Below are positions 2-40,188 of a stretch of DNA of 41,067 nucleotides, in pieces (within the stretch, counting starts at the first letter, position 1; each line of letters starts with the position of its first letter). Location: IMG/VR virus record IMGVR_UViG_3300024346_000171, positions 1-41,067 of that record. One strand, 5' to 3'. The position numbers and the translations under genes are program-made. Under the pieces are notes generated by a model that did no database searches, was not told the origin of the DNA, and saw nothing but the letters and a program-made list of their open reading frames with translations. This stretch comes from a virus.

Positions 2-1225
2 TATGCTCGTGACTTCGCTGGTGACTATGTTGGTAACTATGCTCGTGGTTTCGTAGGAGAGTATGCTGGTGATTTCGTAGGTGAGTACGCAAGAACGTCT
101 ACTAGAACACGCAACTCTGCTTATGCAAGAACTCGTGTTTCTGCTTATGCAAGAACTCGTAATAGTGCTTATGCTCGTGACCGTATCACTAACTTTGCTG
201 GAGACTTCGTAGGTAACTATGCTAGAACCTTCGCAGGTGAATATTCACGCAACTACGCAGGAAACTTTGTCGGCGATTACGTAGGTGACTTCGCTGGTAA
301 CTATGTTGGTAATTACGCTCGTGATTTCGCAGGTAATTACGCAGGTACTTACACTCGTGCTTTCGCAGGAGAATATACCGGTACTTACTCTCGTGGTTTC
401 TCTGGTCAATATACTGGTGTATATGCTAACGCTTACGTTGGAAACTATAGTCGTGATTTCGCAAGAACTCGTGTATCGACTTACGGCCGTACTCGCACTT
501 CTGCTTATGCTGGCAATTACTCGCGTAACTTTGCTGGAGAATACACCGGAACTTATGCTAACGCTTACGTTGGAAACTATACTCGCGACTTCACTAGAAA
601 TCGTGTAGAAACTTACGCACGTACCCGCGCTTCAACATTCGCTGGTAACTATTCACGCGCTTTCGCGGGTGAGTACACTGGAACTTACAGTCGTGGTTTC
701 GTAGGTGAGTATACTGGCACATACACAAATAACTTTGTGGGAGAGTATACCGGTACTTATGCAACAACATTTACTGGTAATTATGCTCGTGCATTCACTG
801 GCAACTATGCAAGAAACTATGCTGGTGATTTCGTAGGTGAGTACGCAAGAACCTTCGCTGGCGAATATACTGGCGTCTATACAAGTGAATTCACTGGTGA
901 CTTTACTGGCAACTATGCAAGAACATTTGCGGGTAACTATATCCGTAACCGTGTATCTGCATACGCAGGTAACTTCATTGGGGACTACACTCGTGGGTTC
1001 TTAGGTGAGTACACTCGCAATAGTACTAACACCTTTACTCAGATCCGCGTATCTGCTTACGCTAGACTACGTACATCAACGTATTCAGCTGATTACGCTC
1101 GCACCAGAAACTCTACCTATGCTGGTAACTACACGGGCAATTATGCACGTGACTTTACCGGTAATTACTCAAGAGACTTTACTGGCAATTACTCTCGCGC
1201 ATTTACTGGCAACTATGTTGGTGCA
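2..1225 (+). repeat. 12-bp period coding repeat (about 102 units)
   Basis: The DNA has a 12-base period that matches the four-residue protein repeat. Copies are degenerate: Gly codons alternate GGT, GGA and GGC, and Tyr codons TAT and TAC. This is not a tandem array of identical units and is explained by the coding sequence. Confidence 0.85.
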
Positions 1226-1285
1226 ACTATCCAACCTACTTTCCAGACTGTAGAGAGTTACACATTATACGTAAGAACCGCATAA
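2..1285 (+). CDS. Tetrapeptide-repeat protein, probably virion or fibre related (5' end outside window)
   Basis: The frame is open from the first complete codon to a TAA at 1283-1285, so the gene begins upstream of the window. About 102 consecutive four-residue units can be read (codons 2-1225). The unit is Y or F, a small residue (A, T, V or S), G or R, then N, D, E or T; FAGN, YTGN, FVGE and YARD are typical. Some units start with R instead (RVSA, RNSA, RTST) and cluster in blocks. The last 17 residues break the pattern. No signal peptide, catalytic motif or membrane segment is visible in this part. Neighbouring units use different synonymous codons, so the repeat looks maintained at the protein level. 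A repetitive beta-rich fibre or solenoid is an inference from the regularity and from the fibre genes downstream. Function is unknown. Confidence 0.85.
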   Translation, partial: YARDFAGDYVGNYARGFVGEYAGDFVGEYARTSTRTRNSAYARTRVSAYARTRNSAYARDRITNFAGDFVGNYARTFAGEYSRNYAGNFVGDYVGDFAGNYVGNYARDFAGNYAGTYTRAFAGEYTGTYSRGFSGQYTGVYANAYVGNYSRDFARTRVSTYGRTRTSAYAGNYSRNFAGEYTGTYANAYVGNYTRDFTRNRVETYARTRASTFAGNYSRAFAGEYTGTYSRGFVGEYTGTYTNNFVGEYTGTYATTFTGNYARAFTGNYARNYAGDFVGEYARTFAGEYTGVYTSEFTGDFTGNYARTFAGNYIRNRVSAYAGNFIGDYTRGFLGEYTRNSTNTFTQIRVSAYARLRTSTYSADYARTRNSTYAGNYTGNYARDFTGNYSRDFTGNYSRAFTGNYVGATIQPTFQTVESYTLYVRTA

Positions 1286-1408: not shown

Positions 1409-1858
1409 ATGAGTTACAGAAAGTGGATGGACAATGCTTTTTGGGAAACCGACCAAAAAGATAAGTTAAATTGTATCCTAGAAATGGAAGATGATGTTGG
1501 TCGAGTTACTCGGCAGGTTATGTTATTAAACCGTTTGGATAAAGATGGTAATGAAAACGAACTATTCAATGAAGTTGTACTCGCTGTAGGCGAAGAAACC
1601 ATTGATCATGAAACTACCGACCGAGACATCCGAAAGACGGCAAAGAAAGAAGAGGAAAAACAACGCGAACTTGAACATCAAAAAGCGCGTAAGTTAGAAA
1701 AACTCTTCAATTATAAATTGGAAGCCTTTGAGGTTGAGGAGATTAAAAACTCCAAAAACCGAAAATTGAAAGCAAAGTTGCGCCGTGCGAAATCTCGCAT
1801 TGAAGTTGACTTGTACTCTATTCTCATTTTACAGGAATCTCTAGAAGGGACTGAGTAA
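1409..1858 (+). CDS. Conserved-looking protein of unknown function, charged helical C-terminal half
   Basis: This is a 149-residue protein of no family I recognise. Residues 1-65 look like a small mixed fold. From about residue 70 onward the sequence is very rich in K, E and R (for example KKEEEKQRELEHQKARKLEKL), typical of a long helix or coiled coil. No catalytic motif is seen. The ATG at 1409 has GGAG nine bases upstream; the ATG at 1401 is in another frame and stops after three codons. It is the first gene after the 1289 sigma70-type promoter, and its stop overlaps the start of the glycosyltransferase gene by one base, so the two are probably translated together. Confidence 0.75.
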   Translation: MSYRKWMDNAFWETDQKDKLNCILEMEDDVGRVTRQVMLLNRLDKDGNENELFNEVVLAVGEETIDHETTDRDIRKTAKKEEEKQRELEHQKARKLEKLFNYKLEAFEVEEIKNSKNRKLKAKLRRAKSRIEVDLYSILILQESLEGTE

Positions 1859-2586
1859 TGGAGAAGACCAAAGGGTTTCTTATTGTAGCGTCAAATAAAC
1901 ACAACTTTTATTTGTACGCCATTAACCTCGCAGAAAGTCTAAGAGACTACTATGAGGACTGTAAAATTTGTCTAGTAACTGAAGAAAGGTTCCTAGATGA
2001 CCGTGGTCGCGATGTCGCTGACGATATTATTTTCTGTGATGACCACTATCGTGCTAAACTGTATGGTATGTCGAAATCGCCTTATGACATAACTATGTAC
2101 ATTGATGCTGATATGGAATGTGAGCATGAAGACATCATCACTGTTTGGGATGAGATGAAAGACCATGATCTGGTATTCTCAGCTCTTACGGATGACCGCG
2201 ATTACATTTACGCGGAACGTGACTTCGATACTCCCGAAGGTAAGTCTAAATTTACTCTTTGTGGTGGTGTCTGTTTATATGATATGTCCAAACCAATTGT
2301 TCGTCAATTCATGGACGACTGGTGGGACTTAACGTTCAGACAAATGAACGATTCTTGGTGGCCAAAAGGGTATGCAGAAAGTCTCAAGTCTTGGGATCAA
2401 TTCTCTCTTTGGTGGCTTACCGAGAAAGAAGAAAAATATAAGGATCTCAAAGTCGGTATCTTCGAAGACGATTTGAGATGGAATTATTACAATGCCTTTA
2501 ATTGGGCAAGAACCCAACCTTCTAGTGGGCCAGTTATTTTACGGCACTTCTCTGCGGGGTTGAATAAGGATACGCCAATCGTATGA
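1858..2586 (+). CDS. GT-A-fold glycosyltransferase-like protein
   Basis: The 242-residue product resembles small nucleotide-sugar-dependent glycosyltransferases. The N-terminus (FLIVASNKHNFYLYAINLAESL) looks like the first strand and helix of the GT-A fold. YIDADME at residues 81-87 supplies a DxD-type metal and nucleotide-sugar site in the usual place. A later GGVCLYD stretch resembles the acceptor-side loop of family 8-like enzymes, and ILRHFSAG near the end could supply the late histidine some of these enzymes use. The donor and acceptor are unknown. The gene overlaps its neighbours by 1 base upstream and 4 bases downstream (ATGA), tying it to the oxygenase-like gene. No transmembrane segment is seen, so it should act in the cytoplasm. 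Confidence 0.75.
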   Translation: MEKTKGFLIVASNKHNFYLYAINLAESLRDYYEDCKICLVTEERFLDDRGRDVADDIIFCDDHYRAKLYGMSKSPYDITMYIDADMECEHEDIITVWDEMKDHDLVFSALTDDRDYIYAERDFDTPEGKSKFTLCGGVCLYDMSKPIVRQFMDDWWDLTFRQMNDSWWPKGYAESLKSWDQFSLWWLTEKEEKYKDLKVGIFEDDLRWNYYNAFNWARTQPSSGPVILRHFSAGLNKDTPIV

Positions 2587-3290
2587 CACAGGTAAATGAC
2601 CAATATCTCAAACACGTCGAGGTTAATAACCCAGAGTTGTTAGAGATTTTAAACGAATACGCTAAATTGCATACGTGGACGGGTTTCGAAAAGAACGTCC
2701 ATATGACTGCACGTGAGCATAAACGTCAACGAGACTATTACGTCGGTGCTGGATATAGAGACTCTATTGTCGCACAAGGAAACCGTCACGATGGTTTTCC
2801 CGAACATCTTGTCGGCTATAACTTGAAAATCGCGGAAAAGGCTCATCAAATATTCGAACACGATGCTGATCCGATTTTCCGTCGTGATTTTACTCATCAT
2901 ATTGCGGACTTGAATGCCCGAATGATGAATTTCTTGTCGGTAAAGCACAATGCATTATGTGCAATCTACCCACCCGGCGGTTATATTTCCTGGCATCACA
3001 ATGCCAATGCTCCTGGCTATAATCTGATCTTCTCCTATTCTAAGGATGGTTCTGGTTATTTCGATTACATTCATCCGGAGACTAAAGAAGTTATTCGTTG
3101 TCAAGATACGCCAGGGACTTGGACGTGTAAGGCTGCATACTTCGGTCACTATGATGAACCCGAGAAGATTCTATATCACGCGGCATCAACTGATGACTGG
3201 AGATGTACGGTGTCTTATGTATTTGATTGGACTGCTGGTTCTGATCCTTTACGAGAAATGGTTCTAGAGGATATCTCCTCTCCAGAATAA
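2583..3290 (+). CDS. 2-oxoglutarate/Fe(II) oxygenase-like protein with HxN in place of HxD
   Basis: The 235-residue protein has the C-terminal layout of a double-stranded beta-helix oxygenase. YPPGGYISWHHNAN (residues 129-142) would carry the first metal histidine. YHAA holds the distal His199, and Arg207 (WRCTVSYVF) sits eight residues later, where 2-oxoglutarate is usually bound. The expected acidic ligand two residues after His138 is Asn140. A paralogue at 30307 has the same change. The first 110 residues are helical and unassigned. The start overlaps the glycosyltransferase stop by four bases. Activity as a hydroxylase is inferred from the fold and not certain, because Asn replaces the usual Asp or Glu. 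The substrate is unknown. Confidence 0.7.
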   Translation: MTQVNDQYLKHVEVNNPELLEILNEYAKLHTWTGFEKNVHMTAREHKRQRDYYVGAGYRDSIVAQGNRHDGFPEHLVGYNLKIAEKAHQIFEHDADPIFRRDFTHHIADLNARMMNFLSVKHNALCAIYPPGGYISWHHNANAPGYNLIFSYSKDGSGYFDYIHPETKEVIRCQDTPGTWTCKAAYFGHYDEPEKILYHAASTDDWRCTVSYVFDWTAGSDPLREMVLEDISSPE

Positions 3291-3376: not shown

Positions 3377-3733
3377 ATGGCAACTTACGAAGACTTTACT
3401 ATAGATCAGGGAACTGATGTCGCTCTTCAGTTAGAACTGATAAATGCTGACGGTTCTACAAAAGATTTGACTGGCCATACGGTCGAGGCCAAGATGAAGA
3501 AGAACTTCAATAGTGAAGTAGACGACACAGTAGAGTTTACAGCAATTGTCGCATCTCCTGCCGCTGAGGGTATAGTGACCCTGTCTTTAACTAACACCCA
3601 GACCGATCTGTTGTCGACTCGTGGTAGATATGTGTATGATGTAGAGTTGAAGTATAATGACAGCGACGGCAACGCCATTGTGGAAAGAATACTTGAAGGC
3701 AAAATCAAAGTATCACCTTCGGTAACAAGGTAA
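3377..3733 (+). CDS. Small beta-sandwich virion protein (BppU N-terminal-like)
   Basis: The 118-residue protein has alternating beta-strand patterns. They include DQGTDVALQLELINADGS, the DLTGHTVEAKMKK stretch, VTLSLTNTQTDLL, RYVYDVEL and a C-terminal strand ending VSPSVTR. This arrangement resembles the immunoglobulin-like baseplate domain found at the start of BppU-type proteins and in many small phage structural proteins; the comparison is from pattern memory, not a search. It is the first gene behind the late promoter at 3328 and heads the fibre gene block, so a baseplate or fibre-connector role is likely. The ATG lies 11 bases after GGGG, the only Shine-Dalgarno-like sequence. Confidence 0.7.
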   Translation: MATYEDFTIDQGTDVALQLELINADGSTKDLTGHTVEAKMKKNFNSEVDDTVEFTAIVASPAAEGIVTLSLTNTQTDLLSTRGRYVYDVELKYNDSDGNAIVERILEGKIKVSPSVTR

Positions 3734-3737
3734 TGAA

Positions 3738-4013
3738 ATGCCTATAAGAAAAATATCAAAATCTAACGGAGGAACTACTCACTTAGTCAGTGATGTTTCT
3801 GCGGGAGATAAGACCCAGATAAAAAGAATTACTTTGGGTCGTCCTGTGCGCCGAGTTGTGCCCAACACGGGTTCTCTCAGTACTTTGGGCGATGTTAACA
3901 TACAAGCTCCACATCCCGAAGAAGGTGACGTTCTGGTATACCATGAAAGTGACTCGAAGTGGCACGCTCAAAAATTACTAGATAAACAAATTATTAATGG
4001 AGGTCAATACTAA
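3738..4013 (+). CDS. Small structural or fibre-associated protein, function unknown
   Basis: The 91-residue product is basic at the start and carries LGDVNIQAPHPEEGDVLVYHESDSKWHAQKLL near its end. This resembles the short module (DV, GDVLVY, then a strand with W) often seen in phage fibre and adhesin proteins just before a fibre domain. Here it exists as a separate gene. It follows the 3377 gene by four bases, with AAGG seven bases before its ATG, and overlaps the next gene by one base (TAATG). Co-translation with the fibre protein at 4013 is likely. Its role is inferred from position. Confidence 0.65.
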   Translation: MPIRKISKSNGGTTHLVSDVSAGDKTQIKRITLGRPVRRVVPNTGSLSTLGDVNIQAPHPEEGDVLVYHESDSKWHAQKLLDKQIINGGQY

Positions 4014-5407
4014 TGGCATCGATAATTAGAATAAAACGATCCGGTGTCGCTGGTAACCCGAACGTACTTGCTCAAGGTGAACTAGCATACTCTTATCTTC
4101 CCGATAATGGGGCCAATGGTGGTGATCGATTATATATCGGTACTGGCCCAGAAGTAAATGGTGATGCTGCAAACCATACCGTCATCGGTGGTGCTCACTA
4201 CGTAGACTTATTGCACGGTGAAGCTGATGCTTCATACGGTATCAATCTTCCTAATAAAGCACTTATTGTTGATGTTAACGGAGCGATTGACCAATTAACC
4301 ATCGGTGATATAAATTTTACTAGTGGTGGTATTGGTGGTGATCCACTCGCGACATTCAATTTCAATGGCGCCAGACTAACAAACCTTTCCGAACCGGTCG
4401 ACAACTCAGACGCTGCGACTAAGTTCTATGTAGATAATTTAATAACAAGTCAGGAACTCGGTTCTAGTTTTTCATTCAACGGAGACACTGGTTCTGGTGA
4501 CGTATTTCTAAACACCGAAGTATTTAATCTTCTCGGTGGACGTGGTATTCAGACCACAGCTGACTCGGATACAAACTCTCTTACCGTTGGTCTAGTACCT
4601 ACTGGCGTTACAGCGGGGTCATACGGTTCTCAGACATCCATACCGACATTCAGTGTCGATTCCGATGGAAGGTTAACTGCTGCTGGCGAAGTCGACGTAG
4701 GCACCAATCTAACCGTCAATGGCGACTCCATATCTTTATTAGATTCAGACTTAACCTTTACCGGTTCTGAAAATATAGATGTGACATATGATTCGTTGAC
4801 AAACACGGTCACGACTTCTCTTAAACCAATAGTACAGAATCTAACCTCGGTCAGTGTTGGAAATTTACGTCTAGAAGGCAATACGTTATTTTCTACGGAT
4901 AGTTCTAACACCCTGTACATTGATCCGGCTCCAACGGATTCGGACGGTGGTACATTAGTAATCCGTGGTGACCTTGTTGTCCAAGGTACACAAACAATAA
5001 TTAACTCGACAGTAATGTCGATTAATGACCTCACACTTACCCTTGCAGATGAAGCGACTACTCCAGCGGAAGCTGATGGTGCGGGTATCTTTATCGCAGG
5101 CGCTGACGTATCAATAGTATACAACGCAGCAAAAGACCAAATAGATATTGACAGGGGACTTAATGTTCTTGCTCCACTATCTATTAATGATGTTGAGATT
5201 GGCGAATTCGTTGATGATCGCGTAGCTAGTCTTCTTACTGCCGGTACAGGAATTGATCTAACTTATGTAGATTCCTCTGACGAACTTTTGATTAGTGCAA
5301 ATGTAGCATCTAATACCATTCTAGGTGTTGCTAGTTTTGATTCTGATCAATTTATTGTAACTAATGGAGCAGTTAACATATATTCTTTGGATGGCGGAAG
5401 CTACTAA
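4013..5407 (+). CDS. Modular tail-fibre or baseplate-fibre protein
   Basis: This 464-residue protein starts with a basic attachment-like segment (MASIIRIKRSGVAGNP, then a GELAYSYLP stretch) similar to the start of the 5530 product. It continues with beta-rich fibre modules. SDAATKFYVDN (about 135-145) is a fibre motif common in T4-like phages. GDLVVQGTQTIINSTVMS followed by DLTLTLAD (about 318-346) is a module also present in the 13300 fibre. The composition is rich in D, S, T, G and N with little Cys or Trp, as expected of trimeric fibre shafts. GGAGG stands upstream of the ATG. It probably forms part of the host-recognition apparatus; which fibre it belongs to cannot be told. Confidence 0.75.
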   Translation: MASIIRIKRSGVAGNPNVLAQGELAYSYLPDNGANGGDRLYIGTGPEVNGDAANHTVIGGAHYVDLLHGEADASYGINLPNKALIVDVNGAIDQLTIGDINFTSGGIGGDPLATFNFNGARLTNLSEPVDNSDAATKFYVDNLITSQELGSSFSFNGDTGSGDVFLNTEVFNLLGGRGIQTTADSDTNSLTVGLVPTGVTAGSYGSQTSIPTFSVDSDGRLTAAGEVDVGTNLTVNGDSISLLDSDLTFTGSENIDVTYDSLTNTVTTSLKPIVQNLTSVSVGNLRLEGNTLFSTDSSNTLYIDPAPTDSDGGTLVIRGDLVVQGTQTIINSTVMSINDLTLTLADEATTPAEADGAGIFIAGADVSIVYNAAKDQIDIDRGLNVLAPLSINDVEIGEFVDDRVASLLTAGTGIDLTYVDSSDELLISANVASNTILGVASFDSDQFIVTNGAVNIYSLDGGSY

Positions 5408-5508: not shown

Positions 5509-5529
5509 CTGAATGGAAGGGTGCCAAAA

Positions 5530-7281
5530 TTGGCGAATAATATAGATATCCGTTTACGAAGAAGTGCCGTACCTGGCAATGTTCCAACGGTAGAACAGTT
5601 ACAACTCGGCGAGTTAGCAATAAACACCGCTGATGGTAAACTATTTCTAAAAAAAGAGTATGATGGTGGGATCGAACAGATCATCGAAGTCGGTGCGAAG
5701 TCTGGTGCCGGTCTATCCTCTACTTACAATAACTATATTTACACGTCTGACGGCGGCCTCCAAACAGTCACTGGTGCAGATGACGCAGGTAACGTACTAA
5801 AGTATGACCTATCCACACCAACCCGTATACAAGTACATCTTAACGGTGTATTGCTCCATCAAGGAATCGACTTCGTAGCAAACGATGGGACTTCAATTAT
5901 ATTCGCATTCCCAATAGATGCGGGTCAAGTTGTACAGGTTTCAGCCTACAATTCTGAAGGCGCTTCTTTTGATAACGACTTCATCTTAGATGATGGATAT
6001 TCATTTACCGTAGGTACTGACGAAGAAACCAGATTCTACCATAACGGCACCAACACGATTTTAAAACATCTCGGTTATAATGGGGGTGATTTAAAAATTC
6101 AATATCGTGACAGTGATCGTATTGATATTGACAGTGCTGGCGTAAACATATTCGGAAGCTTCCGTCTTAATGGCGACCCTGTCGTTACTTTAACGGATGT
6201 TATCTCCGCAATCAATACCGAAGTAGATACTGGATTTGTTGAAGCATTGAATATAAGTGCTTCATTCGTCTCATATGTTCCGGATAGTGATCACTTTTCA
6301 ACCAACGTTCAAGAAGCGATTGATCACCTCTATAACAGTAAACTGGATATTAGTGCGCTTACCGCCTCTATTGTATTGTATCCAACGACTGCTACTATTG
6401 TTGTCGATGGTACGTACACGAAGATGGTCACTTCTATTGATGACCCCGATTTCGATGACATTGCTGTAGATATTAACACAGGGCCTTTGGTAGGTTCCAA
6501 TGTATTAATTGCGGAACTTTCTACGGTGCAGGGTGTCTTAGTCGGCAACACTGGTATTATTAACATTCATACTGTCGGTAACGTAAGAGTTAATCCCGAT
6601 GGTGCTAATGGTTCGGCAACATTCTATTACGAAGTATACAAAAGAAGTGATGTTGGTGTAGAGACGTTGTTAACTACTTCGTCTAATACGGCAGAAATTT
6701 CTCTAGATACTTATGGTGAGTTTTATGCGGATGCGTTATTACCTGCGACTACTTTTATCGCATCTGATCGTGTAGTAATAAAATACTACGGTAATGAAAT
6801 TACTGGTAATGTTAACACTACATATGATTTTCAGTTTGGCGGCGAATCTCCAGTACGGTCTAATTTTCCAGTACCGGTATCCGTAGTACCGCAAGATGTC
6901 ACTTCGGGAATTATCAGTACTGATACAACCAATTTTGATGGAATTCTTTCGGTTGCAGATGATACTGTTCAGAAAGCATTAGATACCATAGACGGTATCA
7001 CAACAACGGATATCCCACAAGGGGATAACCTATACTTCACTACCGAAGCGTCACGTAGTGTAATCTCAGCTGGTAATGGGTTGATATATGATCCCGTAAC
7101 CGGTCAATTCGACATAGACACTACCAGTTCAGTGCAGTTTGGTCAAGTGTCAGCTTCAACATTCGTGGGAAGTCTTCTAGGTAATGCATCAACTGCCACT
7201 GATGCAGACCTACTTGATGGAAATCACGGCAGTCATTATAGAATAGATATTTACGATATTAATGGTGTTATAGTCAACTAA
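5530..7281 (+). CDS. Modular tail-fibre protein with RIDIYDING C-terminus
   Basis: The product is about 583 residues. I prefer the TTG at 5530 over the in-frame GTG at 5521. GGAAGG (5515-5520) is nine bases from the TTG but directly abuts the GTG, and MANNIDIRLRRSAVPGN then aligns with the start of the 4013 protein. Modules in order are an attachment-like N-terminus, a beta domain with VHLNGVLLHQGIDF (about 96-140), fibre shaft, a TDIPQGDNLYFTTEASR motif near residue 493, and the tail DADLLDGNHGSHYRIDIYDING. The 976-residue fibre at 13300 ends in nearly the same way. The protein lacks a visible catalytic site. It is likely a fibre subunit; the partner is unknown. Confidence 0.75.
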   Translation: MANNIDIRLRRSAVPGNVPTVEQLQLGELAINTADGKLFLKKEYDGGIEQIIEVGAKSGAGLSSTYNNYIYTSDGGLQTVTGADDAGNVLKYDLSTPTRIQVHLNGVLLHQGIDFVANDGTSIIFAFPIDAGQVVQVSAYNSEGASFDNDFILDDGYSFTVGTDEETRFYHNGTNTILKHLGYNGGDLKIQYRDSDRIDIDSAGVNIFGSFRLNGDPVVTLTDVISAINTEVDTGFVEALNISASFVSYVPDSDHFSTNVQEAIDHLYNSKLDISALTASIVLYPTTATIVVDGTYTKMVTSIDDPDFDDIAVDINTGPLVGSNVLIAELSTVQGVLVGNTGIINIHTVGNVRVNPDGANGSATFYYEVYKRSDVGVETLLTTSSNTAEISLDTYGEFYADALLPATTFIASDRVVIKYYGNEITGNVNTTYDFQFGGESPVRSNFPVPVSVVPQDVTSGIISTDTTNFDGILSVADDTVQKALDTIDGITTTDIPQGDNLYFTTEASRSVISAGNGLIYDPVTGQFDIDTTSSVQFGQVSASTFVGSLLGNASTATDADLLDGNHGSHYRIDIYDINGVIVN

Positions 7282-7766: not shown

Positions 7767-10700
7767 ATGTCATTTAGACAAATTAAATCACCAGCTTTAG
7801 CCGACCGGTCTATTGTAAGTTCCAAACTAGACCAAAGTGCAGTCAAAGGTCAAAGTGCCCTAACGGGCATGTTAAACCCCGCAGATTGTTTCACACTACT
7901 TTACGATGTGGGTTCCGACTCATTGAAGAAAATTGGTGCTGATCAGTTCTTCGGAAGTTTCTCGACCAGCGATTTGCCTGAAGGCGACAAGTTGTATTTT
8001 ACTGATGCAAAAGCTCAAGCAGCTGTTGCTCAGGACATCTCTGATGCCGTAGCGACGGAAACTACTCGCGCATCAGCAGCAGAACAATTACTAACCACAT
8101 CACTTGCGGCAGAAGTCACACGTGCTACCGCTGCTGAAGGCGTTAATGCTTCCGGTCTTGCTTCTGAAATAACTCGTGCCACCACACGTGAAAATGCAAT
8201 TGAATCTGCATACCAAAGTGCTGATGCTGCTCTTTCTGTACGTATCGATAGTATCCTCACCAACGTAGATTCTGATGCACTTAACTCTCTTGCGGAAATC
8301 GTTACAGCGTTCCGTGATGCTGATGATATCCTTTCTGCATCGGTAATTGCTAACTCTTCTGCGATTTCTAATGAAATCACTCGTGCTACTGGCGCAGAAA
8401 GTACAAATGCTACTGCAATCGCAAACGAAACTACACGTGCTACTAATGCTGAAGTTGTTATTCAGTCTGCACTTACTTCGGAAATTGCTCGCGCAACAGC
8501 CGCTGAAGGTGTTAACGCAGCTGCAATCCTTGTAAATTCAGGAGACATTGATACTTTAGAGACTGGTCTTGCTGCTGAAATCACTCGTGCAAAAGCTGCT
8601 GAAAATCTTAATGCTACTGGTCTTGCTGCTGAAATCACTCGTGCTACTGGCGCAGAAGCTGCAAACGCCGCATCGATCCAATCTGAAATCGCTGCACGTA
8701 CTGCTGCTGATACTCAAGTTCGATCAGACCTTACTACTGCATACATTGCTGCTGACGCTGTTGTTCAATCTAACATTGTTGCGGAAGCTGGTTTACGTGC
8801 TGCTGCTGACTCAGATTTGTCTAGTGGTTTGGCGCAAGAAATTATCGATCGCGCAGCTGCTGTTAGCGCAGAAGCTGGACTACGTGTTTCTGGTGATGCT
8901 GCGAATGCTACTGCAATCAGTAACGAAGTAATTCGTGCGACTGCTGCGGAAGGCGTAAATGCTACTGCAATCAGCAATGAAGTAATTCGTGCTACTGCTG
9001 AAGAATCTCGAATCGAAGCAAAAGTTGACTTTATCACTGCCAACGTCGATGATGCAGCTCTAGACTCACTATCAGAAATCGTCGCTGCATTCCAGAATGC
9101 TGACTCGGATCTTTCTGCTCTCGTTTCGTCTAACACTGTTGCAATCTCTACCGAAGCTGGTACTCGTGCATCTGCTGATGCGGTGTTACAGTCTAACATC
9201 ACTGCTGAAGCTGGTACTCGTGCCACTGCTGATGGTACCCTCCAGTCTAACATCACTGCTGAAGCTGGACTACGTGTATCTGGTGATGCAGCAACTCTTG
9301 CATCTGCACAAGCAGACGCGACTTCTAAAGCGAACACTGCTGAAGGTAATGCAATCGCTCACGCTGACGCGCAAGACACTGCACTTATCGGCGACGCATC
9401 TGTTGATGGTACTGTCGGTAATACTATTACTGCTCGTATCGCAACTGCTAAATCTCAAGCATCTACGTACACTGACACACAGGTTTCTGCTGAAGCAGCA
9501 ACACGTCTTGCTGCTGACAATTCATTGTCTCTACGTGCAACCAACCTCGAAGGCCGCGCTTCCGACCTAGAAACAGATATGGGTATCGTCCAATCTGATA
9601 TCTTAACTGAAGTTGCTGCTCGTGTTGCTGGCGATGGTACGTTACAATCAGCAATCACTGCTGAGACTGCACGTGCTACTGCTGCTGAAGGCGTTAATGC
9701 TGCTGCAATCACTGCTGAGACTACACGCGCTACTAATGCTGAAGGCGTAAATGCTACTGCAATCGCAACCGAAACTACACGTGCTACTGGTGTTGAAACA
9801 GGTCTACGTACAGACGTTAACGCGAACACTTCTGGTGTTGCTGCAAATGCTGCCGCGATTCAAGTAGAAGTAACCCGCGCTAAAGCAGCAGAAACTGTTA
9901 ATGCGAACGCAATCGCCGCAGAAACAACTGCTCGCACATCGGGCGACGCTGCGAATGCTACTGCAATCAGTAACGAAATTACTGCTCGCGTTGCTGGCGA
10001 CCTTGCGTTACGTACTGATGTTGATGCAAACGCACTAGATATCATTGGTCTTGATTCGGATCTATCCTCAGAAATCGCTCGTGCGACTGCTGCGGAAGGT
10101 GTTAATGCCGCTGCCATCGCTTCTGAGATTACACGTGCTACTGCTGCTGAAGGTCTTAACGCAACTGCCATCGCTACCGAAACCACTCGTGCTACTGGCA
10201 TCGAAGCTGGTCTACGTACAGATGTCGACCTAAACACTTCTGGTGTTGCTGCTAACTCTACTGCAATTGCCTCAGAAATAGTACGTGCAAAAGCTGCTGA
10301 AGTAGTAAATGCCAATGCAATCTCTGCCGAAGTTATTCGCGCAACCTCTATTGAAGGTGGTTTACGTACTGATGTTGACACTGTAACTTCACGTGTTGAT
10401 GCAATCGTTGGTACTTCACCACAAACTCTAGACACTTTACAAGAAATCGTTGCTGCATTCGAAGACGCTGACTCAGACATTCAGAATATCATTTCTGCCA
10501 ACTCTGGTCGTTTGACTGTTAACGAAGGCGACATCGACGCTCTTGAAACACGCGCATCTTCACTTGAAGTACGTGCTACTTCAGTAGAAGGTCGTGCAAC
10601 TACTCTAGAAGCTTCACAAGCTGTTCAAGACGGACGTTTGGTTGCAAACGAATCTGATATTCTAGGATTGCAGACTAAGCAAGGTTCTGCTACTCTAGTT

Positions 10701-13205
10701 ACTGTTGCTTCAGATCTATCTGGTGCGGTTAACGAACTTCACACCGAAATGGGTCTAGAATCTGCTAAGGTTGCGATCTTAGAAACAGAAATGGACACTG
10801 TTGAAGGTCGCGCATCTATCCTAGAAAATCGTGCTGATTCTCTAGATTCAGATGTACTTGTTCACGCAGGTCGTCTAACAGTTAACGAAGGCGACATTGA
10901 CGGTCTAGAATCTAAAGTTGGCGTTGCCACTCTAGGTACTACTGCTACTAACCTATCTGCTGCTATCAATGAAATCCACTCTGAACTAGATGTTGAAGCT
11001 GGTAAAGTTTCTACACTACAAGGTGAGATGACTGCTGTTGAAGGTCAAGTCACAGTTCTAGAAGGCGAAATGAATGCTGTTGAAGCTGCGCAAGCTCTTC
11101 ATGCAGGTCGTCTAACAGTTAACGAAGGTGATATCGACTCACTAGAATCCAAGATGGGTTCTGGTTCATTCGACACAACCGCACAAACTGTCATCGGTTC
11201 TTCTAACGAACTTCACGGCGAAATTAATGCTATAGAAGCTCGTGTTGACTCTGCTGAAGCAGACATCCTCACAAACGCTGCTGCCATCTCTGCTGAATCA
11301 ACTCGTGCACTTGGACAAGAAGCATTGATTCGTGGTGAGTTCGCTGCTGCTGACGCTGTTGTAACTACTGCATACATCGCTGCTGACGCGGTCGTTCTTG
11401 CATCTGCTAAATCAGACGCAACTACTAAAGCAAATAACGCAGAAGCTGCTGCGAAAATATATGCTGACGGTCTTGTTACTGATGAAGCGGTAGATCGTGC
11501 AAACGCTGACGCGGTTCTACAATCTGCAATCACTGCTGAACAAACTGCTCGTCAAAATGCTGACGCTACTCTAAGTTCACGTGCAACTGCACTAGAAACC
11601 GAGATGACTGCAACTCAGGCAGGAGCTGGTCTTGCTGTTGACGGTTCTTATGCTGCGCCGACTGGTACTTCTTACCTAAACGCTTCATCATCTTTGAAAG
11701 ATGCTTCCATTAAACTGGATGCAGCAATTGATGCTGAGAAGACTCGTGCATTAGGTATCGAAGGTTCGTTACAGACTCAGATCACTTCTGAAGCTGCATC
11801 ACGAGTTTCTGGCGATTCTGCATTGCAATCAAGTCTTGCTGCTGAAGTTGCTCGTGCTGTTGCTGCTGAAGGTGTATTGTCTACTAACGTTACTGCTAAC
11901 GCTACTGCAATCTCTAACGAAGCTACTGCACGTCAAAATGCTGACCAATCACTTCAGTCGCAAATTGACTTCATCACCGCTAACACTGATTCTGCTGCTC
12001 TAGACTCACTAACAGAAATCGTTGCCGCATTCCAAGCTGCGGACGGTACTATAACTGGTCTAATCACTCAGAACCAAACTGATATCGCAACTAACGCTAC
12101 TGCAATCTCTAACGAAGCTACTACTCGTTCTGCTACTGATACTGCGATTCGTGGTGAGTTCGCTGCTGCTGACACTCTTCTTCAGACAAACATTGACGGT
12201 AAGGTTTCTAAGTCTGGCGATGCGATGTCTGGTGACCTCGACATGTCCGGTAACAAGGTCGGTGGTCTTGCAGACGGTACGGTTTATGCTGATGCAGTTA
12301 ACAAAGGTCAGTTGGACGCGGGTCTTGCTGCACAACACATCTCAGTATTCGACACTAGCGACCTTCTAGAAGATCCGAATGGTACTAACCTTTACTTCAC
12401 TGAACAGCGTGTTCACGATGCAGTATCTGTCACTGATGTTTCTGGTGAAGGTAAAGTATCGGTAACTAACGGCGTATTCTCGATCGACACGTCTAAGTCT
12501 GTACTAGAACTATCTGATGTTACTGACACTACACTTGTTGACAAGGAAGGTTATGTACTGCGCTTGAAGACTGACGGTTCTGGTTTCGAATTAGTCGACC
12601 CAGATCTACTATCGTTCTCACGTTCTAAGCGTCAAGTATTCAACGGTGATGGTGTACAAACCGTCTTCGCCATCGAATTTGACGTAACCGAACAGAATGC
12701 TATGGTATTCGTTGGTGGTGTTATTCAAGATCCATCGGTTCACTACTTCATTGACGTAGAAAACCGTTTGATCACGTTTAACGGTGCGATTCCTGTTGGT
12801 ACTCAGGCAGTATTGGTTGCTCAGTCTATTACTTCTGTTGGTGTACTAGATCCTGGCTCTGTAACTCTAGAAACTCTTGCTTCGAATGTTAAAGTGTTCC
12901 AGCAAGGTGCGGATATTGTAGTCGGTACTACACCTACTACCGTTTCTTCATTCCCAACTAATGTCTACCGTTCAGCGAAATATGTTGTATCTGTAGAGTT
13001 GAATGGCGAATTTGAGACTCGCGAGTGTCTAGTGGTACATAATGGTACTAACGCATATATCACTGAATATGGTATTATCTACACAGGTAATGACATACTA
13101 GGTGACACTGATGTTCGTGTGGTATCTGGTGTCGTAGAACTAACGTATCAGGCAGTCTCTGCTGGTGCGGTTGTTACTGCTTCAGTTTCTTATATTGATG
13201 TATAA
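7767..13205 (+). CDS. Giant (1812-residue) coiled-coil tail-fibre protein
   Basis: This is the longest gene of the window. After an attachment region and an LPEGDKLYFTDAKA motif (70-84) comes a long Ala/Thr/Glu-rich shaft (about 98-870). It is built from 18-residue units of the type E-hydrophobic-TRATAAEG-x-NA-x-AIA. Four DSLxEIVAAFxxAD-type segments interrupt the shaft. Residues 900-1150 hold three longer repeats with GRLTVNEGDIDxLES and NELHxE. Near the C-terminus come GDLDMSGNKVGGLADGT, LYFTEQRVHDAV, and a beta module (about 1622-1690) shared with other fibre proteins here. The helical repeats suit a trimeric, very long, thin fibre, probably for host recognition. GGAG precedes the ATG. A T4 gene name is not assigned because sequence of this type does not align across fibres. 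Confidence 0.85.
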   Translation: MSFRQIKSPALADRSIVSSKLDQSAVKGQSALTGMLNPADCFTLLYDVGSDSLKKIGADQFFGSFSTSDLPEGDKLYFTDAKAQAAVAQDISDAVATETTRASAAEQLLTTSLAAEVTRATAAEGVNASGLASEITRATTRENAIESAYQSADAALSVRIDSILTNVDSDALNSLAEIVTAFRDADDILSASVIANSSAISNEITRATGAESTNATAIANETTRATNAEVVIQSALTSEIARATAAEGVNAAAILVNSGDIDTLETGLAAEITRAKAAENLNATGLAAEITRATGAEAANAASIQSEIAARTAADTQVRSDLTTAYIAADAVVQSNIVAEAGLRAAADSDLSSGLAQEIIDRAAAVSAEAGLRVSGDAANATAISNEVIRATAAEGVNATAISNEVIRATAEESRIEAKVDFITANVDDAALDSLSEIVAAFQNADSDLSALVSSNTVAISTEAGTRASADAVLQSNITAEAGTRATADGTLQSNITAEAGLRVSGDAATLASAQADATSKANTAEGNAIAHADAQDTALIGDASVDGTVGNTITARIATAKSQASTYTDTQVSAEAATRLAADNSLSLRATNLEGRASDLETDMGIVQSDILTEVAARVAGDGTLQSAITAETARATAAEGVNAAAITAETTRATNAEGVNATAIATETTRATGVETGLRTDVNANTSGVAANAAAIQVEVTRAKAAETVNANAIAAETTARTSGDAANATAISNEITARVAGDLALRTDVDANALDIIGLDSDLSSEIARATAAEGVNAAAIASEITRATAAEGLNATAIATETTRATGIEAGLRTDVDLNTSGVAANSTAIASEIVRAKAAEVVNANAISAEVIRATSIEGGLRTDVDTVTSRVDAIVGTSPQTLDTLQEIVAAFEDADSDIQNIISANSGRLTVNEGDIDALETRASSLEVRATSVEGRATTLEASQAVQDGRLVANESDILGLQTKQGSATLVTVASDLSGAVNELHTEMGLESAKVAILETEMDTVEGRASILENRADSLDSDVLVHAGRLTVNEGDIDGLESKVGVATLGTTATNLSAAINEIHSELDVEAGKVSTLQGEMTAVEGQVTVLEGEMNAVEAAQALHAGRLTVNEGDIDSLESKMGSGSFDTTAQTVIGSSNELHGEINAIEARVDSAEADILTNAAAISAESTRALGQEALIRGEFAAADAVVTTAYIAADAVVLASAKSDATTKANNAEAAAKIYADGLVTDEAVDRANADAVLQSAITAEQTARQNADATLSSRATALETEMTATQAGAGLAVDGSYAAPTGTSYLNASSSLKDASIKLDAAIDAEKTRALGIEGSLQTQITSEAASRVSGDSALQSSLAAEVARAVAAEGVLSTNVTANATAISNEATARQNADQSLQSQIDFITANTDSAALDSLTEIVAAFQAADGTITGLITQNQTDIATNATAISNEATTRSATDTAIRGEFAAADTLLQTNIDGKVSKSGDAMSGDLDMSGNKVGGLADGTVYADAVNKGQLDAGLAAQHISVFDTSDLLEDPNGTNLYFTEQRVHDAVSVTDVSGEGKVSVTNGVFSIDTSKSVLELSDVTDTTLVDKEGYVLRLKTDGSGFELVDPDLLSFSRSKRQVFNGDGVQTVFAIEFDVTEQNAMVFVGGVIQDPSVHYFIDVENRLITFNGAIPVGTQAVLVAQSITSVGVLDPGSVTLETLASNVKVFQQGADIVVGTTPTTVSSFPTNVYRSAKYVVSVELNGEFETRECLVVHNGTNAYITEYGIIYTGNDILGDTDVRVVSGVVELTYQAVSAGAVVTASVSYIDV
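8058..10375 (+). repeat. 54-base coding repeats (18-residue fibre units)
   Basis: Direct degenerate repeats of 54 bases encode units such as EVTRATAAEGVNASGLAS and EAGTRASADAVLQSNITA. Runs of two to four units are separated by non-repeat segments. They belong to the shaft of the giant fibre. Eighteen residues equal five turns of an alpha helix, or one heptad plus one hendecad of a coiled coil. Confidence 0.75.
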
Positions 13206-25559: not shown

Positions 25560-25823
25560 ATGAGTGAATTAGATAATACAACAGATATGGGTTTAGACTT
25601 CGTCAATGCTCTACAAACCGGAAACTTCACAGCGGCAGAACAACTATTTAATGATATGTTGTCGGATAAAGTGCAATCCACTTTGGACGCAGAAAAAATA
25701 GCCGTCGCGGGTCAAATCTTTAATGGTGAAACACCGTATGAAGACGATGAAGATGATGTGTCGGATTCTGAAGAAACCGCCGGGGCCGCCTGGGCCGACG
25801 ATGAAGAAGAAGACTTCGACTAA
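25560..25823 (+). CDS. gp67: Prohead core protein gp67
   Basis: The 87-residue protein has a helical first half (GLDFVNALQTGNFTAAEQLFNDMLSDKVQSTLDAEKIAVAGQIF) and an extremely acidic C-terminal half (DEDDVSDSEE to DDEEEDFD). This layout is that of gp67, an internal core (scaffold) protein of T4-like proheads that is degraded by gp21 during maturation. Position right after gp20 agrees. GGAG lies just before the ATG. The stop overlaps the next gene by one base, which is unusual because gene 68 would normally follow; here a glycosyltransferase gene is inserted. Confidence 0.88.
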   Translation: MSELDNTTDMGLDFVNALQTGNFTAAEQLFNDMLSDKVQSTLDAEKIAVAGQIFNGETPYEDDEDDVSDSEETAGAAWADDEEEDFD

Positions 25824-26464
25824 TGAACTTGACTAAGAAGATGGTTCATATATGGATTGGCCCATATGAACCACCTACTCAGTGGATGCCTAGTTGGAAA
25901 GAAAAACATCCGGATTGGGATTATAGTATATTTACAGATGAGATGTTAAAGTCACGCACGTGGCACAATCAACATCTTATCGACAAGTATTATGTTGAGA
26001 AGGTTTGGGCAGGAGTTGCCGATCTTATACGATACGAACTGTTGTATGAAGACGGCGGATTTCTACCTCCAGCGGATGCGATATGCTATCACAATATGGA
26101 CGAGGTATTCACAAGTCCTCCAGATTATGCATACTCAATATACGAAAATGATAGGGACGAACATCTTGCACCGAATTGGATATCTCCGGTGCAAGCTTGT
26201 AATGCGGGAAATACCTTCGTTAAATTATTGATAGATACATTACATGAATTAACTCCGGATCAACTCAGTTTGAAACCGTGGCAATCCACGGGAAATGAAT
26301 TCCTTTCTCAGTTTGTACCTGATAAAGAGAAACATAAGTTGACTATCTGGCCTTCTTACTACACTATCCCCCGTCATTATTCTGTAAGATCTACGCCATA
26401 TGTAGGTAATGGCAAGATATATGCCGAACAAAAATGGGGTAGTACGAAGAGTTTATACTCTTAA
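25823..26464 (+). CDS. Glycosyltransferase-like protein (DXD sugar-binding, OCH1 type) inserted in the head gene cluster
   Basis: The 213-residue product opens KKMVHIWIGPYEPPTQWMPSWKEKHPDW, typical of the Gly_transf_sug/OCH1-like family. WAGVADLIRYELLYEDGGFLPPADAICY (63-89) matches the family core, where the sequence normally runs ADxxRYxxLYxxGGxYxDxD. The first Asp of the DxD is replaced here by a Pro-Ala pair, leaving Asp85 only. The gene starts in the stop of gene 67 (one-base overlap) and ends before a late promoter for gene 68. It acts on an unknown sugar acceptor, perhaps a virion protein or host glycan; activity is uncertain because of the altered motif. It is probably an inserted accessory gene. 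Confidence 0.78.
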   Translation: MNLTKKMVHIWIGPYEPPTQWMPSWKEKHPDWDYSIFTDEMLKSRTWHNQHLIDKYYVEKVWAGVADLIRYELLYEDGGFLPPADAICYHNMDEVFTSPPDYAYSIYENDRDEHLAPNWISPVQACNAGNTFVKLLIDTLHELTPDQLSLKPWQSTGNEFLSQFVPDKEKHKLTIWPSYYTIPRHYSVRSTPYVGNGKIYAEQKWGSTKSLYS

Positions 26465-33554: not shown

Positions 33555-34028
33555 ATGAAAGTTGGTTTTACTGCTTCAACCTTTGATTTGTTACACGCTG
33601 GGCATATCTCTATGTTGCGTGAGGCAAAGACTCAATGCGATTATCTCATATGCGCTCTACAGGTAGATCCCTCTACTGATCGAAGCGACAAGAACTCCCC
33701 CGTACAGACATTAGTGGAAAGATGGACACAACTTTCTGCCGTCAAGTACGTCGACGAAATCATTCCTTATCAGTCAGAGACAGACCTAGAAGACATTCTC
33801 AAGATGGTTGACATTGATGTGAGAATCATTGGCAGCGAATATAAGGATAAGACCTTTACCGGACGTGCAACTTGCGCAGCCCGAGGTATAGAGATTTATT
33901 TCAATCGTAGAGACCATAGGTTCTCGACTAGTGGACTCCGTAAACGAGTTGCGATGCAAGACCCTTTGATGGCTATAAAGGAAAACTTTATAAAACAAAA
34001 AGCGATTGATTGGTTAGACAAAAACTAA
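33555..34028 (+). CDS. Cytidylyltransferase-family nucleotidyltransferase
   Basis: The 157-residue protein starts KVGFTASTFDLLHAGHISMLREAKTQCDYLI, carrying the HxGH signature as HAGH (14-17) of the nucleotidyltransferase superfamily. Near the end, RFSTSGLRKR supplies the second nucleotide-binding motif (S-T-S-x-x-x-x-R). Length and layout fit glycerol-3-phosphate or related cytidylyltransferases that make CDP-activated alcohols. The closest family match might also be a sugar-heptose type enzyme. It should make an activated precursor, which fits with the glycosyltransferase-like genes in this genome, but no kinase or transferase partner is encoded next to it. AAGGA precedes the ATG. The gene sits just before the promoter of gene 55. 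Confidence 0.85.
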   Translation: MKVGFTASTFDLLHAGHISMLREAKTQCDYLICALQVDPSTDRSDKNSPVQTLVERWTQLSAVKYVDEIIPYQSETDLEDILKMVDIDVRIIGSEYKDKTFTGRATCAARGIEIYFNRRDHRFSTSGLRKRVAMQDPLMAIKENFIKQKAIDWLDKN

Positions 34029-35038: not shown

Positions 35039-36097
35039 ATGCGCATTGCTATACTGAATGATACTCATTGTGGATTGCGCAATTCATCGGATATCTTCAT
35101 GGAATATCAGGAAAGGTTTTATACTGATGTATTCTTTCCGTACCTGATAGAGAATAAAATTACTCAGATACTGCATCTGGGCGACTACTATGATAACCGA
35201 AAGACTATCAATTTAAAAGCTCTGAATCATAATCGACGGGTATTCCTTGACAGATTGCGTGAACTTGGTATCACTATGGATATCATTCCTGGCAATCATG
35301 ATACATATTTCAAAAACACCAATCATCTCAATTCGTTAAAAGAGTTGATGGGTCACTATATGAATGAAGTGAACATCGTCGAAGAACCGACTGACATGAA
35401 ATATGGCAAGTCGACTATCGCTCTCGTTCCTTGGATCAACCCCGAGAATGAGAAAGGGATTATCGAGTTCCTCGGGAGTACCAAGTCTCGTATCTGCGCC
35501 GGTCACTTTGAGTTGGCTGGGTTTGAGATGGACAAGGGTCTTATGTGTAAGGAAGGTATGAACCCTGCTCCGTTAGAACGTTTCGATTTAGTGATGTCGG
35601 GTCACTTCCATACAAAATCCCACAATCGTCATATTCATTATCTAGGCGCTCAGATGGAGTTCTTTTGGAATGATGCGCATGACCCGAAGTACTTCCACAT
35701 ATTCGATACGGTTACTAATGAACTGACTCCCGTACAGAATCCCTTGACGATCTACCATAAAATATATTATAATGAAGATACGATAAACCACTTCGAAGAC
35801 CTGTCTTATTTAGAAAACAAGTTCGTGAAAGTGATCGTCAGCAATCGATCTGATATGGTAAAGTTCGAGAGATTCATTGACCGCATCAACAACCAGAAGA
35901 TTCATGAACTGAAGATTGCCGAGGATTTTCGTGAGTTTCGCGGAGAGAACGTCAATGATTCCGATTTAACAATTGACGACACCGAGACTTTAATATACAA
36001 TTACATTCAAGAAGTGGATACTGACTTAGATAAAGATCGCATCAAACAGTTAGTATCCGAATTGATGGTTGAAGCTCAATCTGTGGAGATTGCTTAG
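35039..36097 (+). CDS. gp47: Recombination nuclease gp47 (Mre11-like)
   Basis: The 352-residue protein (T4: 339) contains the calcineurin-like phosphoesterase motifs in order: LNDTHCG (6-12, Asp8 and His10), HLGDYYDNR (46-54), PGNHDTY (84-90), CAGHFEL and SGHFHTKSH. These bind two metals as in Mre11. With gp46 it makes the nuclease that resects DNA ends and starts recombination-dependent replication, and in T4 also degrades host DNA. GAGGA precedes the ATG. Gene 46 would normally follow directly, but a methyltransferase-like gene is inserted between, overlapping gene 47 by one base. Confidence 0.96.
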   Translation: MRIAILNDTHCGLRNSSDIFMEYQERFYTDVFFPYLIENKITQILHLGDYYDNRKTINLKALNHNRRVFLDRLRELGITMDIIPGNHDTYFKNTNHLNSLKELMGHYMNEVNIVEEPTDMKYGKSTIALVPWINPENEKGIIEFLGSTKSRICAGHFELAGFEMDKGLMCKEGMNPAPLERFDLVMSGHFHTKSHNRHIHYLGAQMEFFWNDAHDPKYFHIFDTVTNELTPVQNPLTIYHKIYYNEDTINHFEDLSYLENKFVKVIVSNRSDMVKFERFIDRINNQKIHELKIAEDFREFRGENVNDSDLTIDDTETLIYNYIQEVDTDLDKDRIKQLVSELMVEAQSVEIA

Positions 36098-36735
36098 TGG
36101 CCACTTTGTTGGAATTGTTTGATGAGTATGGGTGTGACAAGGGTAGTTTGAAACATCGGTATGATAGAATATATCAACCGCAGTTTATTGCTATCAAAGA
36201 TGAACCTTTGAATATATTAGAGATTGGTGTATTCAAAGGCGCTTCCGTCTCAGTTTGGTTAAAATACTTTCCGAATGCCACCATATATTGTATCGACATC
36301 TTCGATAGAGTTGCTGCCGAAGATATAGAGGTGTTACGTGATGAACGTGTCAACTGGATCAATCATGATACGACCGCATCTTCACTTGCCGGGGCTATTC
36401 GAACGGCCTGGGCGGACATAAAGTTCGATATTATTGTCGACGATGGTGCACATTGGCACCCCGCTATAAAAGATACCTTCGTCAACTGTTTTCCGTTCTT
36501 GAGTGAGTCGGGCAGTTATTATATTGAAGATGTCTACAATATGGATTTGCCTCATGTCGCGGAACGTATGCAGACAGATTCTTGGTTAAAGAAACAATCA
36601 CACAGATTTAGTGTTGCCTTGTGGAATGAAATGATGTATAATATAACCCAACACACGGTCGAACACTTCGATCTGACGTTAAGTGATCCATACGATATTA
36701 TTTACGATTCCTACATTATAAAAGTGACCCAATGA
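36097..36735 (+). CDS. Class I SAM-dependent methyltransferase-like protein inserted between genes 47 and 46
   Basis: The 212-residue product starts at GTG 36097 (TAGTG overlap with gene 47; GGAG eight bases upstream). Residues 38-68 (LNILEIGVFKGASVSVWLKYFPNATIYCIDI) form a clear Rossmann glycine loop and the second strand with its terminal acidic residue. FDIIVDDGAHWHPAIKDTF and YYIEDVY follow in the place of motifs III and IV. The combination, with Glu/Asp-rich start, resembles small O-methyltransferases of the antibiotic or sugar-modifying type. The target is unknown. Its stop overlaps the gene 46 start by four bases, so it is locked into the operon. Presence between two partner genes suggests insertion of an accessory gene. 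Confidence 0.8.
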   Translation: MATLLELFDEYGCDKGSLKHRYDRIYQPQFIAIKDEPLNILEIGVFKGASVSVWLKYFPNATIYCIDIFDRVAAEDIEVLRDERVNWINHDTTASSLAGAIRTAWADIKFDIIVDDGAHWHPAIKDTFVNCFPFLSESGSYYIEDVYNMDLPHVAERMQTDSWLKKQSHRFSVALWNEMMYNITQHTVEHFDLTLSDPYDIIYDSYIIKVTQ

Positions 36736-39414: not shown

Positions 39415-40089
39415 ATGATTATAACTGATGTCAAGGGGTCGTATAAAGATGGAATTACTTTTTCGTCTGACCCTCTGATTCACGTTATAGATGGGATGGT
39501 CAATCAGGAAGAATCTGATTATATCATCAATCTTGCGAAGACCCGAATGACACCAGCTGCGGTAATTACTACAGATGGAATTTCGGTTCTTTCTGACACT
39601 AGGTCGGCGACACATTGTTGGTTAAACTACAATGATGATGTTATAAAAACTATAGGAGAAAGGATTTCTCGATATGTTGGTATACCGCTCTCTAACGCTG
39701 AAGATATGCAAGTTATATATTATGGCGTAGGCGATCAGTATAAACCACATCATGATGCATTTGATATGTTTACGACACAGGGGCAAAAGTCTTGTGTAGA
39801 TGGCGGCCAACGATTAGTGACGGCTCTAATTTATCTGAATGCGGTGACTGCTGGTGGAGAAACGGAATTTCCTGTTGTGGGCATTAAAGTCAATCCTTCT
39901 CGCGGAAGGATGGTAGTATTTAACAACACTTCGGAAGACGTACATTCGTATTACTTCCCTAGTTTACATGCAGCCCTTCCTGTCATAGAAGGCGAAAAGT
40001 GGGCAATTAATATATGGTTTCGAATGATGCCTCGATCCGAGAAGTTTTCGCCACCATATACGGAATTTCCTAAAGTAAAATTTATTTAA
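39415..40089 (+). CDS. Prolyl-4-hydroxylase-like 2-oxoglutarate/Fe(II) oxygenase
   Basis: The 224-residue protein has a complete P4H-type core. It shows YKPHHDAFDMF (109-119) with His112 and Asp114, the GGETEFP loop (148-153), and LHAALPVIEGEKWAINIWFR with distal His185 and Lys195 for 2-oxoglutarate. The HxD is intact, unlike the other two oxygenase-like proteins of this window. N-terminal FSSDPLIHVIDGMVNQEESDYII is the usual lead-in. Small P4H-like enzymes are known from marine T4-like phages, where the target is unknown (host or virion protein proline, or another residue). The gene starts three bases after the 39187 gene, with no clear ribosome site of its own. Confidence 0.88.
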   Translation: MIITDVKGSYKDGITFSSDPLIHVIDGMVNQEESDYIINLAKTRMTPAAVITTDGISVLSDTRSATHCWLNYNDDVIKTIGERISRYVGIPLSNAEDMQVIYYGVGDQYKPHHDAFDMFTTQGQKSCVDGGQRLVTALIYLNAVTAGGETEFPVVGIKVNPSRGRMVVFNNTSEDVHSYYFPSLHAALPVIEGEKWAINIWFRMMPRSEKFSPPYTEFPKVKFI

Positions 40090-40170: not shown

Positions 40171-40188
40171 TCCTAATTGGAGTATATA

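Follow-up and report, generated by a model that had tools for sequence, protein, structure and literature searches.

A tetrapeptide-repeat gene of a T4-like phage and its probable product, a giant antiparallel hairpin fibre

What kind of protein is built from a hundred consecutive four-residue units, and how would such a chain fold? The question is raised by the first gene of IMG/VR virus record IMGVR_UViG_3300024346_000171, which runs in across the 5' edge of the stretch analysed here (41,067 nucleotides, positions 1 to 41,067 of the record, hereafter the window). The initial annotation, made from the letters of the window alone, described the repeat and missed the two-arm architecture proposed below, in which the window would hold the return arm only.

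The tetrapeptide array and its reading frame

An uninterrupted frame, +2, runs from base 2 to the stop codon at 1283-1285 and gives 427 codons with an open 5' edge; the reverse strand is crowded with stops. Compared with its nearest relative (locus L004), the gene shows a dN of 0.118 and a dS of 1.58, and the fibre gene in the window is under strong purifying selection. The coding frame claimed by the initial annotation is therefore well founded. Its further claim that the order of the units is held by selection on the protein also stands, because dN is far below dS, synonymous codons are mixed in the array (Tyr TAT 32 and TAC 27; four Gly codons; three Arg codons) and no exact DNA repeat of 36 bases or more was found there.

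The phase of the array is unbroken across 100 tetrapeptide units (residues 1-400; about 102 units by the earlier count), and the gene is still open at the window edge, as had been stated. Position 1 holds Y 56, F 30, R 12 and S 2 times, and position 3 holds G 47, R 33, S 11, N 4 and other residues 5 times, so that Y or F occupies position 1 in 86 of 100 units and G or R position 3 in 80. The aromatic residue, which had been placed almost always at position 1, is there in a clear majority, and about one tenth of the units in the window belong to a second type, R-x-S-x, that mostly follows Y-x-R-T. Residue identity in the array is 0.197 at lag 4, compared with a mean of 0.10 and a maximum of 0.154 in 1000 shuffles, and reaches 0.362 at lag 8 and 0.340 at lag 12. 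A unit of eight or twelve residues was considered and rejected: autocorrelation is higher at 8 and 12, yet indels come in fours without preference for eights, lengths of 4 modulo 8 and 0 modulo 8 being equally frequent.

Relatives, whole-gene anatomy and neighbourhood

The rest of the window is T4-like, with genes for the portal, major head protein, sheath, terminase, a UvsW-type helicase and the 46/47 recombination subunits. The head protein shares 73% identity with that of phage C48C1, 61% with Methylophilales phage Melnitz and 60% with pelagiphage HTVC008M. C48C1, a complete phage genome, carries a full-length homologue of the fibre gene with 3348 codons (CDS0201, WJE88074.1, 'hypothetical protein'). 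Among annotated phages, C48C1 is the only one to match most of the window array, and the N-terminal domain is matched by C48C1 only. A tail assembly chaperone gene (Phage_tail_APC, Pfam, E=2e-17) lies just upstream of CDS0201, and the downstream gene order is that of the window up to the 'L-shaped tail fiber assembly' protein and the tail fibre.

Relatives were confirmed on 107 IMG/VR stretches, from which 74 distinct loci were kept; a C-terminal motif scan of IMG/VR gave at least 120 matches, and tandem pairs of fibre paralogues are common among the loci. The suggestion in the initial annotation that similar stretches may exist in other marine phages proved right, the relatives being T4-like phages of marine type. 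The annotation had also proposed recovering the full gene upstream; the window being the entire record, its own 5' part lay out of reach, and whole genes were obtained from relatives instead. A match in Enterococcus phage Riverwalk has no annotated gene beneath the matched stretch, and a scan of bacterial genomes matched one MAG contig, which is probably viral. A second protein type, in which the array is joined to different N- and C-termini, is encoded upstream of the main gene (L071:251-4597; upstream ORF of L066), and the array protein of L071 has a Pro/Glu/Asp-rich tail. The tetrapeptide array looks like a movable module.

Searches of Pfam, NCBIfam and PDB sequences with the array returned no usable match. 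The window protein had no match in Pfam, including the pentapeptide, hexapeptide, leucine-rich and RTX solenoid profiles, and no sequence match in the PDB, where profile A1 reached only titin at E 0.1. The proteins of L004 and C48C1 gave only sub-cut-off Pfam matches to unrelated families, and PHROG matches of the array were weak and unnamed (PHROG 22039). The profile searches that the initial annotation had advised therefore matched no described repeat family, in agreement with its view that this is not a standard solenoid. Our literature search found no description of the repeat or of phage C48C1.

Full-length relatives have 650-3700 aa. Their N-terminal domain measures about 270 residues, and more in some of them; the array that follows has 375-3080 residues, and the chain ends in a short strand of the type VETYTLYVRxA. 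This cap is the best conserved part, with 92% identity. N-terminal subdomains 2 and 3 are homologous (profile probability 95.8%, E 7e-9), and the first subdomain weakly resembles both. When subdomain 3 is joined to the C-terminal strand and compared with subdomain 2, the match runs to the end (96.6%, E 5e-10), with YNIYRR of subdomain 2 aligned to YTLYVR of the cap; by these profile statistics, the C-terminal strand is shown to be homologous to the last strand of subdomain 2. Because the cap strand extends the match between the two subdomains, the array would be inserted between the last strands of subdomain 3, with both of its ends meeting. The features at and downstream of the fibre gene are as follows.

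2..1285, + strand: 3' part of the fibre gene, 427 codons plus stop; open frame with its 5' end upstream of the record edge.
2..1222, + strand: tetrapeptide array, putatively the basal part of the returning (C-terminal) arm; the partner outgoing arm lies outside the window.
1208..1282, + strand: C-terminal closing strand GNYVGATIQPTFQTVESYTLYVRTA; subdomain profile match, AlphaFold strand in the short relative P0002, conservation.
1409..1858, + strand: 149-aa protein, no Pfam or PHROG match; CDS in the same place in C48C1.
1858..2586, + strand: 242-aa protein, glycosyltransferase-like; weak Pfam Glycos_transf_2 match, E=0.015, below cut-off.
2583..3290, + strand: 235-aa hypothetical protein; CDS in the same place in C48C1.
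3377..3733, + strand: LtfC-like / L-shaped tail fibre assembly protein; phrog_1084 4e-22, phrog_3304 'L-shaped tail fiber protein assembly' 5e-16.
4013..5407, + strand: virion or tail fibre protein candidate; phrog_15769 4e-30, phrog_26630 tail fiber 1e-5.
5521..7281, + strand: tail fibre protein candidate; phrog_17885 tail fiber 1e-11.

The closing strand at 1208..1282 is predicted to complete the third N-terminal subdomain and so to clamp both array ends together. The LtfC-like gene at 3377..3733, whose product matches Pfam LtfC below cut-off (E=4e-4) and which has the same place in the gene order of C48C1, marks the tail-fibre region. The 242-aa glycosyltransferase-like protein possibly modifies the fibre. 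A DXD-type glycosyltransferase (25823-26464; Pfam Gly_transf_sug 4e-6) is encoded between the portal and prohead protease genes, and given the two glycosyltransferase-like genes the fibre may be glycosylated. Elsewhere in the window, a 1812-aa protein of the fibre/baseplate region (7767-13205) has partial PHROG matches and no Pfam match; a Redoxin/AhpC-TSA family protein (40177-40722; Pfam 6e-24) is an unusual auxiliary gene in a T4-like phage; and a methyltransferase (36097-36735, between the gene 47 and gene 46 homologues), a cytidylyltransferase-like protein (33555-34028) and a 2OG-Fe(II) oxygenase (39415-40089) stand among core T4-like genes.

Mirror register and facing-residue code

We scanned for a mirror relation between the two halves of the array by the mutual information of residue classes at i and j = S+E+d-i over offsets d. 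In most proteins the peak lies at d = -8. A subfamily with one additional residue in the C-terminal cap loop peaks at -9, and L005, whose return arm lacks 24 residues, at +16; in L076 and L077, which are distant and use another residue alphabet, a peak is still found at -6 to -10. A facing-pair score trained on dissimilar proteins only ranked -8/-9 first among 601 offsets in 35 of 42 proteins, and within single proteins the signal is strong, with leave-out z values of about 6 to 10 for most large arrays. In 30 further remote members, found by the cap motif, the arm base was scored at 121 offsets, of which -8 came out best in 19 members; scored over the whole array at 601 offsets, -8 came out best in 10. 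All these counts come from mutually homologous proteins, which are not fully independent, and should not be read as plain probabilities. The antiparallel register (i+j constant) spans up to about 1000 residues per arm.

The two halves also change length together. Arm length differences, summed by hand from alignment gap lists, are +176/+176 for the first and second halves of L011 compared with L010, +64/+64 for L010 compared with L004, and +240/+240 for L011 compared with L004. A return arm moreover fits its own partner: the best-scoring partner is the outgoing arm of the same protein in 20 of 24 proteins, and in the other four it is narrowly beaten by arms of close relatives. Set against L004's outgoing arm, the return arm in the window scores best at -8 over aa 196-419 and at +16 over aa 1-220, as expected if the arms of the window protein are 24 residues shorter than those of L004. 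Against the outgoing arms of L010 and L011 it gives -8 when the whole stretch is scored, with a shift to +80 in L010 over the first ~130 window residues. Judged by this register, the window array is the basal part of the returning arm, slightly over half of it in L004 terms.

Departures from a constant register occur in several paralogues with large inserts, where it is absent; large mid-array inserts often abolish the global register. In L040/L042 it is about -8 near the base and then -20, a 12-residue mismatch, and a clear mirror register was found neither in P0004, with the same array type and other ends, nor in the array protein of L071. The 24-residue deletion in one arm of L005 is uncompensated, the longer form being found in L006-L009 and L038. 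Apart from this deletion the L005 and L006 proteins are near-identical (99.9%), and it may stem from a collapse of the assembly or from slippage in an almost perfect repeat.

At the register, facing pairs are of the kinds 1-1, 3-3 and 2-4 or 4-2 in about 98.6% of cases. Expected pair counts were taken from registers displaced by a multiple of four residues, so that the phase is preserved. At position 1, Y:Y, F:R and F:S are favoured, with observed/expected counts of 1175/768 for Y:Y, 560/182 for R:F and 359/120 for F:R, compared with 0/108 for R:R. At position 3, G:R, S:R and G:T are favoured (R:G 845/503, S:R 393/154), and R:R (37/417), S:G (3/216) and T:R (0/77) are avoided. Changes on both sides of a facing pair occur at 2.44 times expectation at the register and at 1.5-1.7 times at shifted registers. 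The period of four would follow from position 1 facing 1 (Y:Y, F:R, F:S), 3 facing 3 (G:R, S:R, G:T) and 2 facing 4.

The arithmetic midpoint of the array falls within the longest irregular, phase-broken stretch in most members, and turn-like sequences such as GWGGDPG, GPPMGPDPG and IGGEPTP are found there in several proteins. Identity between relatives is 0.78 in the arms and 0.40 within 50 residues of the midpoint, and the fraction of indels that are multiples of four is 76% in the arms and 25% near the tip. Inserted domains are skipped by the register: in one subfamily with globular domains of about 221-229 aa in the return arm, it is -8 before the domain and -229/-237/-230 beyond it. In CDS0201 of C48C1 (L003), the array of 3080 residues contains several inserted globular domains, and the register is -9 at the base and shifted by the inserts. 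Large globular inserts at residues of about 1660-1900 of this protein have no Pfam match; the sequence QQFFEPRVDD, which ends one insert, recurs as QQFWEPRVDD in L018, L045, L049 and L051. The C48C1 inserts are possible carbohydrate-binding modules. Arm lengths range from 187 to 1009 residues; assuming extended beta structure, with 0.33 nm per residue, we estimate that the arms would measure about 62 to 333 nm. Register, pairing code, length compensation and midpoint tip are all shown by sequence statistics, at which level they should be read.

Proposed architecture, its alternatives and known systems

We infer from these statistics the beta structure of the arms, their pairing within the chain, the oligomeric state, the fibre role and receptor binding. 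The window protein is quite probably a tail or side fibre of a T4-like myovirus that forms a giant antiparallel beta-hairpin. The N-terminal domain, with its three related subdomains, would be the base of the fibre, and the array would be a giant insert that separates the last two strands of the third subdomain and has both of its ends anchored at one place. The chain would run out in one arm, turn at a hypervariable tip and come back as a second arm, paired antiparallel and in exact register with the outgoing one; a beta-ribbon is the simplest form of such pairing. The tip at the far end would be presented to the host. Because the gene lies in a tail-fibre/baseplate region with an assembly chaperone, its context points to a fibre role. 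More generally, it is likely that the family represents a single-chain architecture class in which arms of hundreds of residues recognise each other by a simple facing code, comparable to an RNA hairpin, with Y:Y, F:R, G:R and S:R favoured and R:R hardly ever used. If so, these fibres would measure some 60 to 300 nm or more, their length would evolve by matched insertions in both arms, and the tip would be free to vary for host recognition.

Structure prediction bears on the ends of the protein. In the short relative P0002, AlphaFold was confident on the N-terminal domain and the last residues, with long strands at 252-274 and 619-643 (read from the strand limits in the monomer; block pLDDT 74-96 for the latter strand), and the register derived from sequence maps 252-274 exactly onto 641-619. 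The array of P0002 stayed at pLDDT 25-30, with no confident structure, and fold searches with the P0002 model gave no match. The monomer prediction suggested by the initial annotation thus succeeded for the ends of this relative and failed for the array, the window alone, in which the partner arm is absent, giving a mean pLDDT of 28.

If the pairing were between two chains, in a homodimer or higher rod without any turn, each array would lie against the reversed array of its neighbour; mirror register and length compensation would be identical, and the statistics do not separate cis from trans. We nevertheless consider such a rod unlikely: the midpoint is irregular, hypervariable, turn-like in several proteins and sometimes the site of a globular insert; the C-terminal strand completes the type of subdomain that starts the array and is folded there confidently by AlphaFold in a monomer; and a rod of this kind would carry attachment domains at either end. 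Three out-and-back chains could instead form a swapped trimer, a six-stranded needle in which the code is satisfied between arms of neighbouring subunits. All register, code and co-change data fit this arrangement, for which T4 gp37 is a precedent; it is a real possibility, if somewhat short of an even chance, and is a sub-case of the hairpin explanation, not its opposite.

The function list of the initial annotation had included, besides a fibre, a sticky surface coat and a phase-separating protein. A disordered Tyr/Arg sticker polymer or sticky coat would suit the composition (13% Tyr, 13% Arg, 15% Thr, 12% Gly) and the array without confident AlphaFold structure. Without a fixed structure one would not expect a register that is exact over 500-2000 residues, nor facing pairs that are strongly avoided, indels that are compensated or arms that fit their own partners, and we regard such a polymer as very improbable; of that list, the fibre is the most likely entry, phase separation is disfavoured, and stickiness is retained as a property of the fibre surface at most. 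A trimeric beta-helix with parallel chains as in T4 gp5/VgrG, built on a Gly-containing octapeptide and with termini at opposite ends, is hardly credible: the array does share a hydrophobic-x-Gly-x pattern, and V/L-T-G-N repeats of cyanophage S-RIM2 match Gp5_trimer_C weakly (E=0.001), but the register is antiparallel, the indels show no octapeptide unit and the window array has no Gp5 match.

The long tail fibre of T4 contains trimeric proteins, gp34, gp36 and gp37 (PMC3004832). The distal tip of gp37 consists of a collar, a needle and a head; the needle is six-stranded and antiparallel (PMC7291167, PMC9659904), with a size of about 150 by 25 A (PMC3004832). Like the gp37 tip, the array would run out and back as an antiparallel needle that stands on a basal domain and carries the receptor-binding part at its distal end. 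Unlike it, the window array shows no sequence relation in the PDB and is set in another domain type, and the arms of its family have about 190-1000 residues or more and a tetrapeptide pairing code. The gp37 needle contains histidine iron-binding motifs; because His accounts for about 0.1% of the residues in the arrays and does not occur in that of the window, motifs of this type are absent from the arrays.

The T4 gp5 C-terminal beta-helix and the VgrG spike share with the array a short Gly-containing repeat, there an octapeptide, in a phage tail component (PMC3004832). They consist of three chains wound together, in contrast to the antiparallel halves and four-residue unit of the array family. 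The 'structural protein' of cyanophage S-RIM2 (HQ317292, SWTG_00067), also from a T4-like marine phage, has a [V/L]-T-G-[N/D] four-residue repeat, hydrophobic at position 1 and Gly at position 3, and its gene adjoins neck genes; it differs in its short arrays, the lack of Arg units and its other N-terminus. The V/L-T-G-N arrays of S-RIM2 (L080:3990-9728) also match the Bactofilin profile weakly, as they do Gp5_trimer_C. Low-complexity polymers of the FUS/FG type resemble the array in Tyr, Gly, Arg and Ser composition, whereas the array has a residue-exact register with a distant partner segment.

We know of no protein strands with a readable complementarity code over hundreds of residues and, to our knowledge, no repeat protein is built as a residue-by-residue self-pairing hairpin. 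Here the facing code can be read from the sequence by itself, and register, length and partner are predicted from it. If confirmed, the structure would account for an unannotated gene family that is widespread in T4-like marine-type phages, would add a type of fibre whose length, tip and inserted domains can change independently, and would provide a model for a self-zipping protein ribbon. As far as we have found, the facing code and the scale are without precedent, and the out-and-back topology has its precedent in the gp37 needle of T4.
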